A program made the translations under genes and the position numbers. From contig JAHNUO010000003.1 in the NCBI GenBank assembly GCA_019787685.1, positions 2,418,001-2,482,000 of the forward strand: 64,000 bases of DNA, given 5' to 3'. Under the pieces are notes generated by a model. That model was not told the DNA's origin. It searched no databases and worked only from the letters and a program-made list of their open reading frames with translations. Below are positions 37,701 through 45,490 of this stretch, piece by piece (position 1 is the stretch's first letter; each line of letters starts with the position of its first letter). The DNA is from Chiua virens (taxonomy: Eukaryota > Basidiomycota > Agaricomycetes > Boletales > Boletaceae).

Positions 37701-38967
37701 CCCAGTCCAACAAAAAAAACATAGAAGAACAATTTGCGAAGCAAGAGAGGCGGGACACTCTTTTGAGACAACAGCTAAACATAACGACTGCAGACCTGGA
37801 GGCAGTGGACAGTTTTCCGGACCTGCACCACTCTATGGCGAGCTTTCTTGGCCAGAACAACGTCGTCAATCTCGTCCAACTCCTCCATGATCATCGCGAG
37901 GATCCAGCTGTGAAAGTACGTCCAATCTTCTCAGGGGTAATGGGCAAGGACACATCATTGACGCAGATGACAGACCAATTTTATGCAGTCCTTAAGAGAC
38001 CATTTGCTTAGCAGGCTTTTTGGTCTCGATTTCGACGGCGACGAGCGCTCTTTCACTGAGGCGCAGTACCAATCGTTACGCCTCACCAACCTCGGGGCTG
38101 TCATCAATTCCAAACTCTTGCGCGTCAACTATACTACTTATGATATACGCCGGGACTACGACACAGTTCGATGTGGAGCCGGAGGTGTGGTGATGACCTC
38201 ATCCAGGGATGAGGAGCACCCATTCTGGTATGCACGTGTAATTCGCGCATTCAACATACCCGTGCTATTTGCTGCGGATGGTGTCAACTTTGCTCAGGAG
38301 AGGATGGAGGTGCTGTGGGTTCGTTGGCTCGGTATAGATCAAGATCATAAATGGGGGTTCAAAGAAGCACGTTTACCCAAGGTAGGATTTGTGCCAGATC
38401 AGCCCGGTTATCTACCCTTTGGCTTCTTGGATCCATCGCTGGTCATTCGTGGTTGCCACTTGATACCAGCTTTCGTGGAACAGTGCACCAGCGAATTGCT
38501 ACAACCTGGCACATTGTTGGCCAGACTCCCGGGTGAAACGGATGACTGGGCTGGATTCTACGTCAACATGTGAGTGTGCTTACGTCTATCATACCTCCAC
38601 TCCTCAATCAGCCTTCAGTTTTGCAGACCGAGACATGTTCACCCGGTTTTCTGGTGTAGGAGTGGGACACCTGGCTGTGCAATTGGGTGGTCGCGTACCA
38701 GCTCTGGTCATCAAGCCCCAGGATGAAATGGAAGTGGAAGAACCCACCTACGAACACGGTGATGTCGATGATGTGCTTGAAGGTGACGGTGAGACACCTG
38801 ATCTCGCATGCGGTGAACCCAAGGGCGAGGTGGATTACATGGATGTCAAAGATGAGCAGGAAGATGATGCTGATGACAATGGCAATGGCAATGGCAATGA
38901 CAATGACAATGACAATGGTGGCACAAGTGACTGTAATAGTGTCAGCGACAGCGAGGAAGTAGGATAT

Positions 38968-39522
38968 TGTCATATACCGCTCCGTTCTCCGTTCCTCCGA
39001 ATATAACTCCGTTTCTCTTAGACGATAACTCCGGGTCGATCTCCCTCAGGACGCAACTCCGCGACCCCGGACCTCCGTTACGTATATATGTTTCCTCCTT
39101 TTATATTAGTACATAACCTGTGTCTCACTTATGAGCACAGCTCCGGCTTTCTCAGTACCCGACTTACCTCCGGCTATGTAGTTTCCCGATCTTCCGTCTT
39201 ACTCAGTTCTTACCAACTCCGTTACTAATCTCCATTCCACTCCGAGTATATAAACTGTAGTACCATGACTGTGTACCCTTAGTCTGAATATTAGTTTATT
39301 GTATGACTCACTCCGAACACTCCGTAAGACCTTGACGGTCTTTACTCCGCTCGACTCCACTTTATGTGTTGAGTCATATATCTACCTCCGTTTTCCGCAC
39401 GTCCGAAATATAGGGACAGACTGTGACAAGGGTGCACCACATATGGTGAAGCCAAGTCCCGTCCGACGTTACAACTCCGGAGATCCGGAGTTGGCTACCT
39501 CCAAGTCGCACGGTCTCTAACA
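38968..39522 (+). repeat. 5' LTR
   Basis: 555 bp, TG...CA ends. It holds a TATA box at 39,247-39,254 and about 16 copies of CTCCG. Confidence 0.93.
39247..39254 (+). promoter_or_regulatory. LTR TATA box and inferred transcription start
   Basis: TATATAAA lies about 30 bp upstream of TAGTCTGAATAT (39,280-39,291), placing the start of the element's RNA at or beside that motif. Confidence 0.65.
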
Positions 39523-39523
39523 G

Positions 39524-39536
39524 TATATTCAGACTA
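39524..39536 (+). promoter_or_regulatory. Self-priming primer-binding site
   Basis: ATATTCAGACTA at 39,525-39,536, two bases after the 5' LTR, is the exact reverse complement of TAGTCTGAATAT at 39,280-39,291, at the inferred 5' end of the RNA. No tRNA-type TGG primer site is present. This is the arrangement known from Tf1, where the RNA's own 5' end primes reverse transcription. Confidence 0.75.
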
Positions 39537-39564
39537 CTTCTTGTCATCAGTCACCTCACGACCT

Positions 39565-40809
39565 ATGTCCTCTCACACCCGCCCTCAGACCAGTACTACT
39601 GGTATCTCTACCTTGAACCTATCTGACACTACCCGCATCCAATCTCTCAGGAACCTCCTCAGTCATCGACGAACTCCCGAAGTCATCGAAGATTTCCGAG
39701 GTTTCTCCACTCGACTTATTGCATCCTCTGCCTCTCGAGCACCCGTATTCCTGGGTGTACGAACTCCGTCTTCCCGTAATCAATCTCCGAGTATTCCGGG
39801 CTCCTCCAGGGGACATCCCTCTGATGAGCCCAACTCCGGAGATGACTTCTCTGACCCCGAAACCGAACTTGCCTCTGATGATACCTATGGGCGATTGACA
39901 AATGCAATACAAAGTCTCACTTGCGCCTCTCGTCACCCCTCCTCTAGCTCCTCCCCTCGCACTAAAGTCAGAGAACCTGATCAGTTTGATGGGACAAGCC
40001 CCCGCAAACTCCGAGTCTTTCTCGTTCAATGCGAGTTGAACTTCCAGGACCGTCCCAAGGCTTTCCGCTCAGACCGTGCCAAAGTCACATTTGCACTGTC
40101 TTATCTGAAAGGAATTGCCCTTGAATGGTTTGAACCCGACCTCCTCGAATCTGACCCCTCCGTCTCCCGTCCCCTCTGGAAAGATCACTACACCGACTTC
40201 GTTCTGGAACTCCAGACGAACTTTGGTCCGCACGATCCGGTCGGAGATGCGGAGTACGAACTCTGAGATCTGTCCATGAGTGATGGACAAAGGATCAACA
40301 AATATGTAGTTGAGTTTAACCGCTTAGCTGCTCAAGTCCGTGGTTATGGAGAAGGTGCTCTCCGTACCCATTTCTACAATGGTCTGCCAAACCGCATCAA
40401 AGACGAAATCTCTCACGTAGGCAAACCCCCAAGGCTCTCTGAAATGCGTTACATGGCGCAAGCTATCGATGCTCGCCATTGGGAGCGCAACTCCGAGATT
40501 AATCGCGCCTCCACGCAATCCTCCAGAAACTCCGCATCCGCATCACCTCCTATCTCCGAATCCGACCAAGAATATGACTCCGACGACTCCGTCGAGTCTA
40601 CCTCCGCACCCCAAGAACCTGAATCACCACTCGGTGAAGACGGTAAACTCACCTCCGTCGAACGTCAGAGACGTTTCGACCTCTTCTTATGTATGTTCTG
40701 TGGCCTCCCAGGACATAAGGCTAAGGACTGCCCCAAGTCCACTTCTCGCTCTGCAAAGCCCCGTGCTACACGAGCAACTCCGGTATCCTCCTCCGAGGAC
40801 ACTGACTAA
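39565..40809 (+). pseudogene. Retrotransposon Gag with one in-frame stop
   Basis: The ATG at 39,565 opens a Ser/Pro-rich N-terminus. The capsid-like core follows: REPDQFDGTSPRKLRVFLVQ, ALSYLKGIALEWFEPDL and FVLELQTNFGPHDPVGDAEY. TGA at 40,264-40,266 interrupts it, and the same frame continues at once as DLSMSDGQRINKYVVEFNRL, FYNGLPNRIKDEISHVGKP and MRYMAQAIDARHWER. An acidic linker and the zinc knuckle CMFCGLPGHKAKDC (C-X2-C-X4-H-X4-C) follow, then a stop at 40,807-40,809. The TGA could be a dead codon or a readthrough site; nothing in the sequence decides. No protease or polymerase follows. Confidence 0.85.
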
Positions 40810-41594
40810 GCCTCCGACCCCCGACTCCGTGTATTCTGAAGGAGCGTTACCTTCTACTGCACAATAAGGAGTATATTCAGAACCAACGCATCCAGTCTTT
40901 TCGACACTCTGGACCTCATGAACTTCAGTTTATGTCGTCACCTCCCTTCTTCTTTTCACCCCGAGAGAGTTCGAGGACATGATTCTTCACCTCGATACTC
41001 CCTACCCCTTCACTCCCCAGAACTCCGTTTACCCCGAGCCTCAACTCCGTTTACCCCGACTCTCATCCCCGACCTCCTCATAACTCCTCCGACCTTACCC
41101 TATGATCACTCCGACCGCACTCCGTGCACCTCCGTTGGGTCCCCCTGTTCTCTTGATTCTTGGATACCACTGATCCGCTCGCTAACACTCCGTTGAGCGA
41201 CGAGTTATGGACAGTAACTTTTCTGTTCACCTGAACATGGACGCCAACACATATGAGCTCGACTCTGCGCCTTTGGGTGTTCCCTCTGGCAACTCCGGCT
41301 ATTACTCCGATCCTCTAGGTTACTCCGGTCATCCCTCCTTGCTTGACATTGAAAACTCCATGGAACCTCAGCGACGTATACCGTTCTTTCCTGGATTACT
41401 TTGAAAGGCACTCACATCCCTCCTCCTTCGTACCCCGAACTCCCTCCGTCCACCTCCGCTGCTAGACGCTGGGACGTCTAGCCTAAGAGGGGGATATGGA
41501 CCTCCCATTCCCCACACTTCCATCTCCGCTCACTCCGTTTTCCTCCGAGAATCGTATCTTGTTGCTTTTTGCAACTTCATAAGTACATTCTATT
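40810..41594. other. Retrotransposon internal DNA without pol
   Basis: About 780 bp after gag. It is rich in CTCCG and Pro/Ser codons in all frames, with no reverse transcriptase, RNase H or integrase motif. A purine tract CCTAAGAGGGGGATATGG at 41,481 resembles the polypurine tract before the 3' LTR and may be an internal or relic copy. Confidence 0.6.
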
Positions 41595-42541
41595 CTACTC
41601 TACTTCTCCCTCCGCATCCGCCAAGTCACCCATCTCCACCTCCGTGCCCATCTCCGTGAGCTCCTTTTCGCCCACCTCCGCATCGACATCCTCATCATCC
41701 GACTCCTCCGACTTCACTCCGTACACCTCCTCCACCTTCAGCTCCACGAGCCTCGATAACAGAGCGTTCTGGTAATCCAGACGCCTGTTTTGCGACCTCA
41801 TCGCCGCTTGGAGATCCCTTACGGCCTCCGTCATCTGCTTCGCAACTCCCGCCCACGACTCCGCCGCCTGCACGAACGTCTCCGGAAGAGACGAGACTTG
41901 AGCCCCGCTCAGACCAGCGGACGACGACTCGGTCCTCGCCTTCTTCTTCGACTTCGGCACCTCCTCCGATTCCTCCACCCGTTTCCTCCGGCGCACCCTC
42001 TTCTCCGTCACCTCCTCTCCGGGCCTCTCACACTTCACCTTGGCGTCTCGACAAGGCTCGCAAGCTGTCGACTTCCTCCCTGCGCCCAGTACGCACTCCA
42101 GGCCTCGGTCCTCGCACCTAGTGCATGCCTCCCACTCCGACCCTCGCGCCTTCTCCTTCTCCTTGCCCTTCTCCTTGGGAGCACTCTGCTCCGCACGGAC
42201 CTCCTCGGCCTAGTAACTCCGTCAGCTCCGGAAGCCAGACGTTGTGAACCACTCACCCTTTTCTTGGCCTCCTCGACCTCTCGCGCCTCGCGCTCCTCTG
42301 CTTTCCTCCGCTCCTCCGCAGCCCTCCTCGCTTTCTCTGCCTCCTCTGCCTCGCGCCTCGCCTCTTCAGCCTTGCGCGCCTCCTCAGCTTCCTCCGCCTT
42401 CCTCCGTTCCTCCGCTTCTCTCCGAACCTTCATCCGTCGTCGCCGCTCCGTCGCCTTCGCGTCGAACAGCTCGTCGCTGTCATCGTCGCACTCCTTGAGA
42501 CGCGCGTCGTCCCACTCCTTGATGCTGCTGATATCGGACAT
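41595..42541 (-). CDS. Antisense gene in the retrotransposon: coiled coil plus six-Cys cluster
   Basis: Encoded opposite to gag. Exon 1 (42,541-42,257) starts MSDISSIKEWDDARLKECDD, then about 60 residues of Glu/Ala/Arg-rich charged helix (AEERRKAEEAEEARKAEEAR). A 47-bp intron (42,256-42,210; donor GTGAGT, acceptor CTAG) joins in phase 0 to AEEVRAEQSAPKEKGKEKEK. Next is the cluster CTRCEDRGLECV...CEPCRDAKVKCERP, spaced C-X2-C-X6-C then C-X2-C-X6-C, reminiscent of fungal Zn clusters. A Lys/Arg region, a second helical stretch and an acidic tail (SEESDDEDVDAEVGEKEL) complete about 299 residues. TATATAAG lies about 45 bp upstream of the ATG. The balance of a basic metal-binding-like centre and acidic tail suggests a nucleic-acid or chromatin role, but that is inference. 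Unspliced, the downstream part would be out of frame. Confidence 0.8.
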
Positions 42542-42584
42542 GGTAGGAATTAATGGTTAAGGAATGAAACAGCCATCCGCCGGA

Positions 42585-42592
42585 CTTATATA
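42585..42592 (-). promoter_or_regulatory. TATA box of the antisense gene
   Basis: TATATAAG on the - strand, 44-51 bp upstream of the antisense ATG, between that gene and the 3' LTR. Confidence 0.6.
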
Positions 42593-42716
42593 CAGAGCAC
42601 GTCACCCACACTCCGAATTCAAACTCCGCACATCCGTCACCTCCACTCGCGCTTTGTTCGCGCTTTGACTCCGCTTGACTATTGTTCCTCGCTAAAGGCC
42701 TTCAAGGGTTCAGGCC

Positions 42717-42728
42717 TAAAAGGGGGAT
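42717..42728 (+). promoter_or_regulatory. Polypurine tract
   Basis: AAAAGGGGGA directly before the 3' LTR (separated by TAC), as needed to prime plus-strand DNA synthesis. Confidence 0.75.
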
Positions 42729-42730
42729 AC

Positions 42731-43283
42731 TGTCATATACCGCTCCGTTCTCCGTTCCTCCGAATATAACTCCGTTTCTCTTAGACGATAACTCCGGGTC
42801 GATCTCCCTCAGGACGCAACTCCGCGACCCCGGACCTCCGTTACGTATATATGTTTCCTTTTTATATTAGTACATAACCTGTGTCTCACTTATGAGCACA
42901 GCTCCGGCTTTCTCAGTACCCGACTTACCTCCGGCTATGTAGTTTCCCGATCTTCCGTCTTACTCAGTTCTTACCAACTCCGTTACTAATCTCCATTCCA
43001 CTCCGAGTATATAAACTGTAGTACCATGACTGTGTACCCTTAGTCTGAATATTAGTTTATTGTATGACTCACTCCGAACACTCCGTAAGACCTTGACGGT
43101 CTTTACTCCGCTCGACTCCACTTTATGTGTTGAGTCATATATCTACCTCCGTTTTCCGCACGTCCGAAATATAGGGACAGACTGTGACAAGGGCACACCA
43201 CATACGGTGAAGCCAAGTCCCGTCCGACGTTACAACTCCGGAGATCCGGAGTTGGCTACCTCCGAGTCGCACGGTCTCTAACA
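42731..43283 (+). repeat. 3' LTR
   Basis: 553 bp, nearly identical to the 5' LTR; differences include a 2-bp shortening near 42,856 and single changes near 43,195-43,265. Confidence 0.93.
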
Positions 43284-43546
43284 GATATTAATATGAGAAC
43301 TGTCGATGATTCTTAGGTGACCATTAGGAACCCATTATCAGAAATTCAGCCCACTAGCAGATACATGCCGGTACATAATCCCTTATAATGGGCTTGTCAG
43401 ACCGAAATCACACAGCATTCCATGTAGATTCTTTGTGCAGTAATATAAAGTTGGAAAGGGAATGTACGAGAATATAAGGGGCTGGCATGCTGTTAAAAAA
43501 TTGCAATTTGTATAAGACGTTATAAGGAATCAGTCAAACTCGTGAT

Positions 43547-44509: not shown

Positions 44510-45490
44510 AGGTGTCAGATGATGGGGTGGAATCTTGCAAGTTTTCATCTTGCAAGAAGCGTGATAGCAAGGGTAGCTGGGAGGCGAGCGGCCCATGCAA
44601 TCCTGCAAATCGTGTGGTAGCAAGACATAGTATGGTAGTATCTTGCAAGAAGCACAGCAGTGATGCGCCGGCTGGGAGCCTGGGAGCAACTGGGGGGCAT
44701 CATGGGTCTTGCAAAATCGCGAGGGTACGGTATCGGTTGTCGAAACTTGTAAGTTGCATCTTGCAAGAAATACAGTAGTGAGGGCGCCTGGGGGAATGAC
44801 GGATCTTGCAAAGTGTGCGAGGGGCGAGGTAGTATTGGTCGTCGAAACTTGTAAGTTTGCATCTTGCAAGAAACACAGTGGTGAGGGCAGCTGGGAGCCA
44901 GGGAGCAGCTGGGGAGCATGATTGAGTCTTGCAAAATGGACGGTAACGAGGGCAAGTTATCAGATGGTGGCAACTTGCAGGTCAGGGTCTTGCAAGAAAT
45001 GTGACAGTGGGCGACTGGAAAACGACTGGGGGTCCGGGGATATGACGGATCTGCCAAACATACGGTAGCAAGGCCAATGCGTCAGAGGGTGGCATTATGG
45101 CAGCTGGGTTTTACAAAACGCGCAGTAGCAAGGGAGAGAGCAGTAGCTAGGGCAAGACATCAAGTAGTGTGGCATGCCTTGCAAGTTGGGGTCTTGCAAG
45201 AAGTGCGACAGTGAGGGCGGTTGAGAAACAATGGGAGACATGATGGATCCTGCAAGACATGCAGTAGCAAGGGCGAGATGTTGGATGGTGTGGTGTTGTC
45301 TTGCAAACTAGTGTCTTGCAAAACGTGTGGTAGTGAGGACAAGACATCGGATGGTGTTATCTTGCCTTGCAAATTAGGGTCTTGCAAGAACTTGCACGAC
45401 GGAAGGCGGTTGGGGAGGGATGTGATGGACCTTGCAAAATGTGTGGTAGCGAGGCCTCGAGGTTGATTATCGTTACTCTTGCAATCCTTT
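44510..45490. repeat. TCTTGCAAGA minisatellite
   Basis: Degenerate tandem repeat with a period of very roughly 110-190 bp. A unit reads CTTGCAAG, a short gap, TCTTGCAAGAA, then a stretch rich in CAGTGAGGGCG and CTGGGAG, then GATCTTGCAAA and GTGTGGTAGCAAGGCAAG. Seven exact TCTTGCAAGA palindromes are visible. Short open frames on both strands repeat with it (LQVSTTN-like on -, SCKLASCKK-like on +) but look incidental. Confidence 0.8.

Follow-up and report, generated by a model that had tools for sequence, protein, structure and literature searches.

Introduction

HBZ of human T-cell leukaemia virus type 1 (HTLV-1) is a spliced, coiled-coil nuclear regulator of the bZIP type. According to the accessible part of PMC7264820, its antisense promoter lies in the 3' long terminal repeat (LTR), and LTR elements of plants carry antisense additional open reading frames between pol and the 3' LTR (aORF-3R; for example Grande gene23, RIRE2, Retand and PvRetro13) whose roles are undetermined. 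Grande gene23 has a nuclear product and is transcribed from a promoter upstream of it. PvRetro13 has an SMC domain and Retand a transposase-28 domain; beyond these, no clear similarities of the encoded proteins are given in that part of the source. In a fungus, brtn has been described as an additional antisense gene of the Boty-like elements of Botrytis cinerea (Zhao et al. 2011, through the accessible parts of PMC7264820 and PMC8365987). VANC of the Arabidopsis VANDAL transposons is an element-encoded factor that acts on its own family via short motifs, for which motif binding and loss of methylation were shown and which are located in tandem repeats of non-coding regions (accessible part of PMC5735166). 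Here we describe an antisense gene in a Ty3/gypsy-type LTR retrotransposon of the boletoid fungus Chiua virens, found in a stretch of 64,000 nucleotides (the window; GCA_019787685.1, contig JAHNUO010000003.1, positions 2,418,001 to 2,482,000). The gene encodes a predicted Zn2Cys6-type protein and its element is rich in the 5-mer CTCCG. Antisense accessory genes of LTR elements are already known; in this one a protein domain can be recognised, constraint is specific to the reading frame, and the element itself contains a candidate target motif. Save for brtn, our search of the listings of an open-access library found no report of an antisense zinc-cluster gene or CTCCG motif in fungal LTR elements.

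Structure and conservation of the antisense gene

The gene is located on the minus strand, with an ATG at 42541 and a stop at 41595, and removal of its 47-bp intron gives a single frame of 299 amino acids. A sequence-only reading had claimed a complete-looking antisense gene of this anatomy, and its coordinates were found to be correct. The TATA-like box that it placed ahead of the ATG is also present, as TATATAAG at -51 to -44. This box was retained in 28 of the 29 close copies read, with one change in L059, and in three divergent relatives (L069, L070 and L071) a TATA box was observed at -47/-48, close to the window's -51. The similar distance suggests that the gene may have its own promoter. 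The sense-strand mirror frames opposite the gene (41790-42560, plus strand) are long, as expected because its codons are rich in GAG and GCG, and they are open in L070 and L071 too.

A DNA search of the 48.3-Mb assembly (136 contigs) with the antisense gene gave at least 44 matches over at least 38 places, at 79-100% identity and with the window's own place included. Thirty of the 38 places were compared together with their flanks (L039-L068, where L039 is the window copy). The intron signals GT[GA]AGT, CTGA[CT] and TAG were kept in all thirty, the window's copy included, and the middle of the intron varies. A gene was considered intact when its spliced frame, read from each copy's own sequence, reached at least 280 amino acids; 29 of the 30 copies were read and L066, whose start was not found, was scored as not intact. 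Intact genes were observed in ten copies, nine of them among the 14 youngest (L039-L052) and one among the 16 older ones, and an uninterrupted gag frame of 460 amino acids is found in six of the 14 youngest.

The protein search of the genome returned 126 exon-level matches and, beyond the close family, 27 more places, mostly at 36-49% identity. In the three divergent loci that were studied in detail (L069-L071) the gene is antisense and immediately behind pol, in a tail-to-tail arrangement, and its ATG is preceded by a related LTR. The proteins of L070 and L071 are 46-47% identical to that of the window. In the L070 gene a phase-0 intron of 48 bp is found at the same codon boundary, and with the same branch-site context, as in the window gene; in L071 (1047-1850) the intron and its neighbouring codons are gone by an in-frame deletion, which leaves an open frame of 268 amino acids, and in L069 the spliced frame is broken. 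The pol piece of L071 contains RNase H, integrase, SH3_Tf2-1 and a chromodomain (PF00385, 25.7 against a Pfam cut-off of 25.1). L072 is the 5' part of the same element, with an open gag frame of 464 amino acids and LTRs that are 99.8% alike, and the L071/L072 element is a recently inserted copy of the autonomous lineage.

The position of the gene is specific to this lineage. Among the best-scored 63 of 790 candidate pol loci, 26 belong to the autonomous lineage and 33 to other Ty3 pols (38-41% identity). At 24 of the 26, and at none of the 33, the antisense gene was found on the other strand and no more than 1500 bp downstream of pol. At 11 of the 24 the two convergent genes are 40-46 bp apart, and at one of the 24 (C15) the match covers just a C-terminal piece. 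The lineage loci where no antisense gene was detected are G000:C15:248113-250038 and C11:645382-646323, the pol match of the second being truncated. This count used 70 of 99 pol matches, as the other 29 are reverse-transcriptase-side pieces (40-44%) of loci already counted, and 41 of 146 gene matches, as the others are additional exons and close copies of the window family; inspection by eye placed none of the omitted matches on the opposite strand and within 1500 bp of a 38-41% pol locus. A 38-41% pol at C9:202551, which sits inside an interrupted copy of the window family and has the same strand, was scored as a miss.

Homologues in other LTR elements, whose absence would have spoken against the sequence-only reading, were found, in the 38 close places (the window's own included) and at 24 of the 26 lineage pol loci. 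The same counts rule out a passenger captured in a single copy. The idea that the gene stands in place of pol holds for the window copy but not for the autonomous relatives, where it lies behind pol. The LTRs of the window family and the autonomous lineage align at 72% identity. The window family is therefore a pol-less relative of an autonomous Ty3/gypsy chromodomain lineage, and it has retained gag and the antisense gene.

Selection on the antisense frame

Ratios of non-synonymous to synonymous substitution (dN/dS) between lineages were calculated by NG86, with synonymous sites near saturation in the between-family comparisons. The antisense gene gave 0.34 for window against L070, 0.48 for window against L071 and 0.21 for L070 against L071, and the two halves of gag gave 0.15 and 0.18. 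Read in its five other frames, the antisense region gave values from 0.65 to 1.5, where the lowest is the opposite-strand frame that shares wobble positions; this mirror frame is under weaker constraint (0.65-0.79) and stops in the window copy. In a context-matched test within the close family, private variants in the antisense frame were neutral (1.26), shared variants gave 0.75 (P 0.01) and the youngest copies gave 0.41 (P 0.022). The corresponding value for gag, from a test spanning about 57% of it, was 0.78 (P 0.077). The wobble-sharing opposite frame gave 0.79 in the same test, and because this nearly equals 0.75 the within-family test alone does not tell the strand. A ratio away from 1, which the sequence-only reading had made a test of its claim, was thus observed between lineages and among shared variants, although private variants are neutral. 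Frame-specific dN/dS together with the conserved intron rules out a chance or mirror frame.

The predicted protein

The window protein has the cysteine pattern C-x2-C-x6-C-x10-C-x2-C-x6-C, and 20 of its final 45 residues are D or E, as expected from the paired C-X2-C-X6-C cluster and acidic tail seen in the sequence before. Zn2Cys6 domains have the consensus spacing C-x2-C-x6-C-x5-12-C-x2-C-x6-8-C. This spacing was observed in the window, L070 and L071 proteins and in eight of 17 database relatives; eight of the nine others start within or past the cluster, as judged by eye. The Pfam profile Zn_clus (PF00172) scored 22.8 with window exon 2 and 23.9 with P0001, both above the gathering score of 21, and it scored below this value with P0002 (19.3), L071 (15.9), L070 (11.9) and P0004 (10.3); no match was found between this profile and P0009. 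The order of the halves is not that of Zn_clus, as half 1 matches profile positions 19-32 and half 2 matches positions 1-15. Furthermore, a Foldseek search of the PDB gave seven matches at E of 10 or below, which are weak and all to Zn2Cys6 DNA-binding domains (PPR1, Leu3, Pho7 and Gal4). Pfam scans of both exons and of the relatives found no bZIP family.

Database relatives were named from Boletus, Pisolithus and Trametes. One Boletus edulis protein is annotated as 'Zn(2)-C6 fungal-type domain', which agrees with the suggestion of the sequence-only reading that similar proteins are annotated as host hypotheticals. No relative of the Boletus protein was found in prokaryote assemblies, and viral contigs gave no match to the L071 pol piece, the antisense protein not having been searched for there.

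The dispersed CTCCG motif

CTCCG is the top over-represented 5-mer in the window element and in both examined parts of the autonomous element (counts for the window element are given in Table 1). Its density is about 30 per kb in the LTRs, and that of CTCCG plus CGGAG in the flanks is 1.0-1.5 per kb. Five CTCCG were counted in four Ty3 fragments that have no copy of the gene close by (5.07 kb; three from pol and one from gag), or 0-2.2 per kb. The enrichment goes beyond codon use. Compared with synonymous-codon shuffles, CTCCG was found 31 times against 10.4 in L071 pol, 14 against 7.0 in L072 gag and 10 against 4.9 in the C-terminal half of window gag; the N-terminal half (5 against 2.7) was not significant. 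The complement CGGAG, which we take to be a GAL4-type half-site, also exceeds the shuffles: it was found 22 times against 13.6 and 18 times against 9.8 in the antisense genes, 7 against 2.2 in L071 pol, 6 against 2.0 in L072 gag and 3 against 0.7 in the N-terminal half of window gag. The strand bias of L071 pol, with CTCCG to CGGAG at 31:7, is similar to the 92:7 of the window element.

The LTRs of the two lineages contain 16 and 15 CTCCG. Seven of these align, which is close to the background rate for 5-mers; the number of motifs is thus kept while the sites turn over. In the whole genome a three-site CTCCG pattern was observed 1172 times and its reversed control 352 times. Among the first 100 of the 1172 places, all on C1, 89 belong to this family of elements or to relics of its LTRs (seven of them assigned by eye) and 11 are elsewhere. 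CTCCG is accordingly a short motif enriched in its own family, like the motifs of VANC-type systems. No periodic spacing of CTCCG was observed in the element (coefficient of variation of the gaps 1.09, helical-phase value 0.09).

Organisation of the window element

The features of the element are collected in Table 1. Its two LTRs are 99.3% identical and differ by four transitions and one 2-bp gap. The sequence TAGTCTGAATAT is complementary to the putative primer site. With the RNA start placed by sequence position, the complementarity between the post-LTR sequence and the predicted RNA 5' end is 12 nt in the window element and 11 nt in L072, an arrangement which we take to resemble Tf1-type self-priming. 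The CCHC-type knuckle of gag scores slightly below the Pfam cut-off. No pol domain was found inside the window element, the spacer at 40810-41594 included. The spacer was rejected as a pol remnant, since a single 41-nt piece of it matches the pol regions of these relatives, at 83-85% in L070 and L071 (E 6.5e-6 and 1.2e-7 respectively; 33 nt in L069), and the other matches are short and weak.

Table 1. Positions of the features in the window, with strand
Feature	Position	Strand	Remark
Target-site duplication GATAT, left copy	38963..38967	.	5 bp
5' LTR, 555 bp, TGTCAT...CTAACA	38968..39522	+	16 CTCCG inside
Dispersed CTCCG	38968..43283	+	92 on sense strand (expected 13), 7 as CGGAG
TAGTCTGAATAT, probable sense-RNA start	39280..39291	+	about 33 bp past LTR TATATAA (39247-39253)
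Putative self-primer binding site ATATTCAGACTA	39525..39536	+	Tf1-like arrangement; L072 arranged likewise
gag frame, DUF4939/Ty3_capsid-like and CCHC knuckle	39541..40809	+	broken by TGA at 40264-40266
Spacer, site of pol in autonomous relatives	40810..41594	+	17 CTCCG
Antisense gene exon 2	41595..42209	-	204 codons and stop
Long C-terminal helix, likely coiled coil	41718..41882	-	exon-2 residues 110-164; pLDDT blocks >90, residues 111-160
Zn2Cys6-type cluster	42030..42125	-	residues 124-155; half order reversed relative to PF00172
Antisense intron, 47 bp, phase 0	42210..42256	-	GTGAGT ... GCTGACGG ... TTACTAG
Antisense gene exon 1	42257..42541	-	95 codons; conserved N-terminus and charged coil
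TATA box TATATAAG	42585..42592	-	-51 to -44 from A of antisense ATG
Polypurine tract AAAAGGGGG	42718..42726	+	ahead of 3' LTR; by eye
3' LTR, 553 bp	42731..43283	+	17 CTCCG inside
Target-site duplication GATAT, right copy	43284..43288	.	

In the region 38900-43330 the window element is seen to be inserted precisely at the stop codon of an acidic open reading frame. When its flanks are joined the frame ends in ...EEVGY and a stop, and in the occupied site it runs on into the LTR. Downstream, at 44534-45463, degenerate repeats of 36-39 nt are built on CTTGCAAG and form families D2 and D3 with eight members each.

Discussion

We infer function from sequence throughout, and we give an even chance to the view that the element has in the antisense gene a true accessory gene whose product is a self-directed nuclear DNA-binding regulator of its own family, acting via CGGAG. 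The gene, which in a Ty3/gypsy chromodomain lineage occupies the antisense strand from pol to the 3' LTR, would have a promoter of its own immediately inward of that LTR, and its transcript would be spliced once. The product would most likely be a nuclear Zn2Cys6-type DNA-binding protein which dimerises via its coiled coil and carries an acidic tail. It would recognise CGG-containing half-sites (CGGAG, which is CTCCG on the sense strand) spread across the element, and this recognition would control or protect the expression of its own family, by activation or anti-silencing and not by repression. Taken together, the cluster of DNA-binding type, the dimer coil, the acidic tail and the CGG-type array fit such a self-directed regulator best. 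Because the pol-less subfamily kept gag and the antisense gene, the gene probably helps the copies that carry it.

A narrower proposal is tentative, and we think it somewhat doubtful: the half-swapped Zn2Cys6 protein may bind CGGAG loaded on every part of the element, from the LTRs, gag and pol to the antisense gene itself, and so form a self-recognition system. By analogy, and no more securely, loading mainly in one orientation and beyond codon use, with density kept while sites turn over, might make it the LTR-element counterpart of VANC.

Some observations weigh against selection on the motif. Copy polymorphism gave no clear selection on CTCCG, the C of CpGs within CTCCG varies no less than it does at other CCG sites, and the result for the variability of the G is mixed. 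Because of the strand bias of CTCCG, an explanation at the level of RNA has to be considered, although we regard it as unlikely. CUCCG, scattered along the sense RNA, would be a signal for packaging, export or protection to which the Gag knuckle or the antisense-encoded protein binds, and the antisense gene would be a packaging or RNA-handling factor. A bias of 92:7 that spans LTR, gag, spacer and antisense gene, and of 31:7 in the pol of the relative, is consistent with such a signal, and gag does contain a CCHC-type knuckle, just under the Pfam cut-off. However, the bias also fits direct-repeat DNA binding, the cluster resembles DNA-binding Zn2Cys6 domains, and CGGAG itself is above the synonymous shuffles in both L071 pol and L072 gag.

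We consider it more unlikely again that the protein is a negative regulator which, in the manner of HBZ, represses sense transcription and so limits copy number or harm to the host. The geometry is the one we take HBZ to have (antisense, near the 3' LTR, spliced and with a coiled coil) and the gene is convergent with pol or gag, but the acidic tail suggests activation, and a pol-less subfamily with the gene intact in nine of its 14 youngest copies is not what a self-repressor would favour. Functional antisense RNA, acting by interference or as double-stranded RNA with the reading frame secondary, is improbable: genes that converge at 40-46 bp at 11 of 24 loci would give overlapping RNAs upon read-through, but the frame-specific dN/dS and the retained splice signals argue for the protein. 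Slightly less probable still is a role in integration or chromatin targeting, in which the protein would tether the pre-integration complex. A nuclear protein designed to bind DNA would be suitable for this, and the window copy did insert precisely at a stop codon; however, the autonomous relative examined has its own integrase chromodomain and nothing places the protein in an integration complex. A captured host gene or functionless chance frame, for which the long mirror frames could be cited, is the least credible of all, as the gene occupies the same place in two lineages and the mirror frame is less constrained and stopped in the window copy.

If the protein of the self-directed regulator model binds its own dispersed motif, elements may mark and control themselves. 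With both the domain and the candidate motif in one element, its function is testable with one purified protein and one set of oligonucleotides. In addition, some Agaricomycete 'Zn(2)-C6' annotations may be retrotransposon genes; if self-recognition is true, part of them would be transposon genes.

Comparison with known systems

The closest likeness is to the aORF-3R genes of plants. In the autonomous lineage the gene is antisense between pol and the 3' LTR (the window copy being without pol), and it is present in most copies and under selection. It differs from them in its fungal host, chromodomain lineage, conserved intron, Zn2Cys6-like cluster and dispersed CTCCG. As far as the accessible descriptions of brtn allow comparison, that gene is likewise antisense in a fungal Ty3/gypsy-type element, whereas its host is an ascomycete. 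HBZ has in common with our gene the antisense position near the 3' LTR, the splicing and the design of a coiled-coil nuclear regulator, which is predicted here; HBZ is, however, a bZIP protein where ours has a zinc cluster, and our TATA box is located between the gene and the LTR.

The proposed likeness to VANC is that an element-encoded factor may recognise short repeated motifs enriched in its own family. In the accessible part of the VANC source the motifs are in non-coding tandem repeats, whereas CTCCG is dispersed across coding and non-coding DNA. With the chromoviruses of the Tf1/sushi-like type, the family shares an integrase chromodomain (L071) and a primer site complementary to the inferred RNA 5' end. 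With fungal Zn2Cys6 regulators such as GAL4, HAP1, PPR1 and Leu3, the antisense protein shares the six-cysteine spacing, the Pfam Zn_clus match, a following coil and an acidic tail, and its predicted model gave weak fold matches to domains of this type. It differs from these regulators in that the halves of its cluster are reversed and in that its gene is carried by a retrotransposon.
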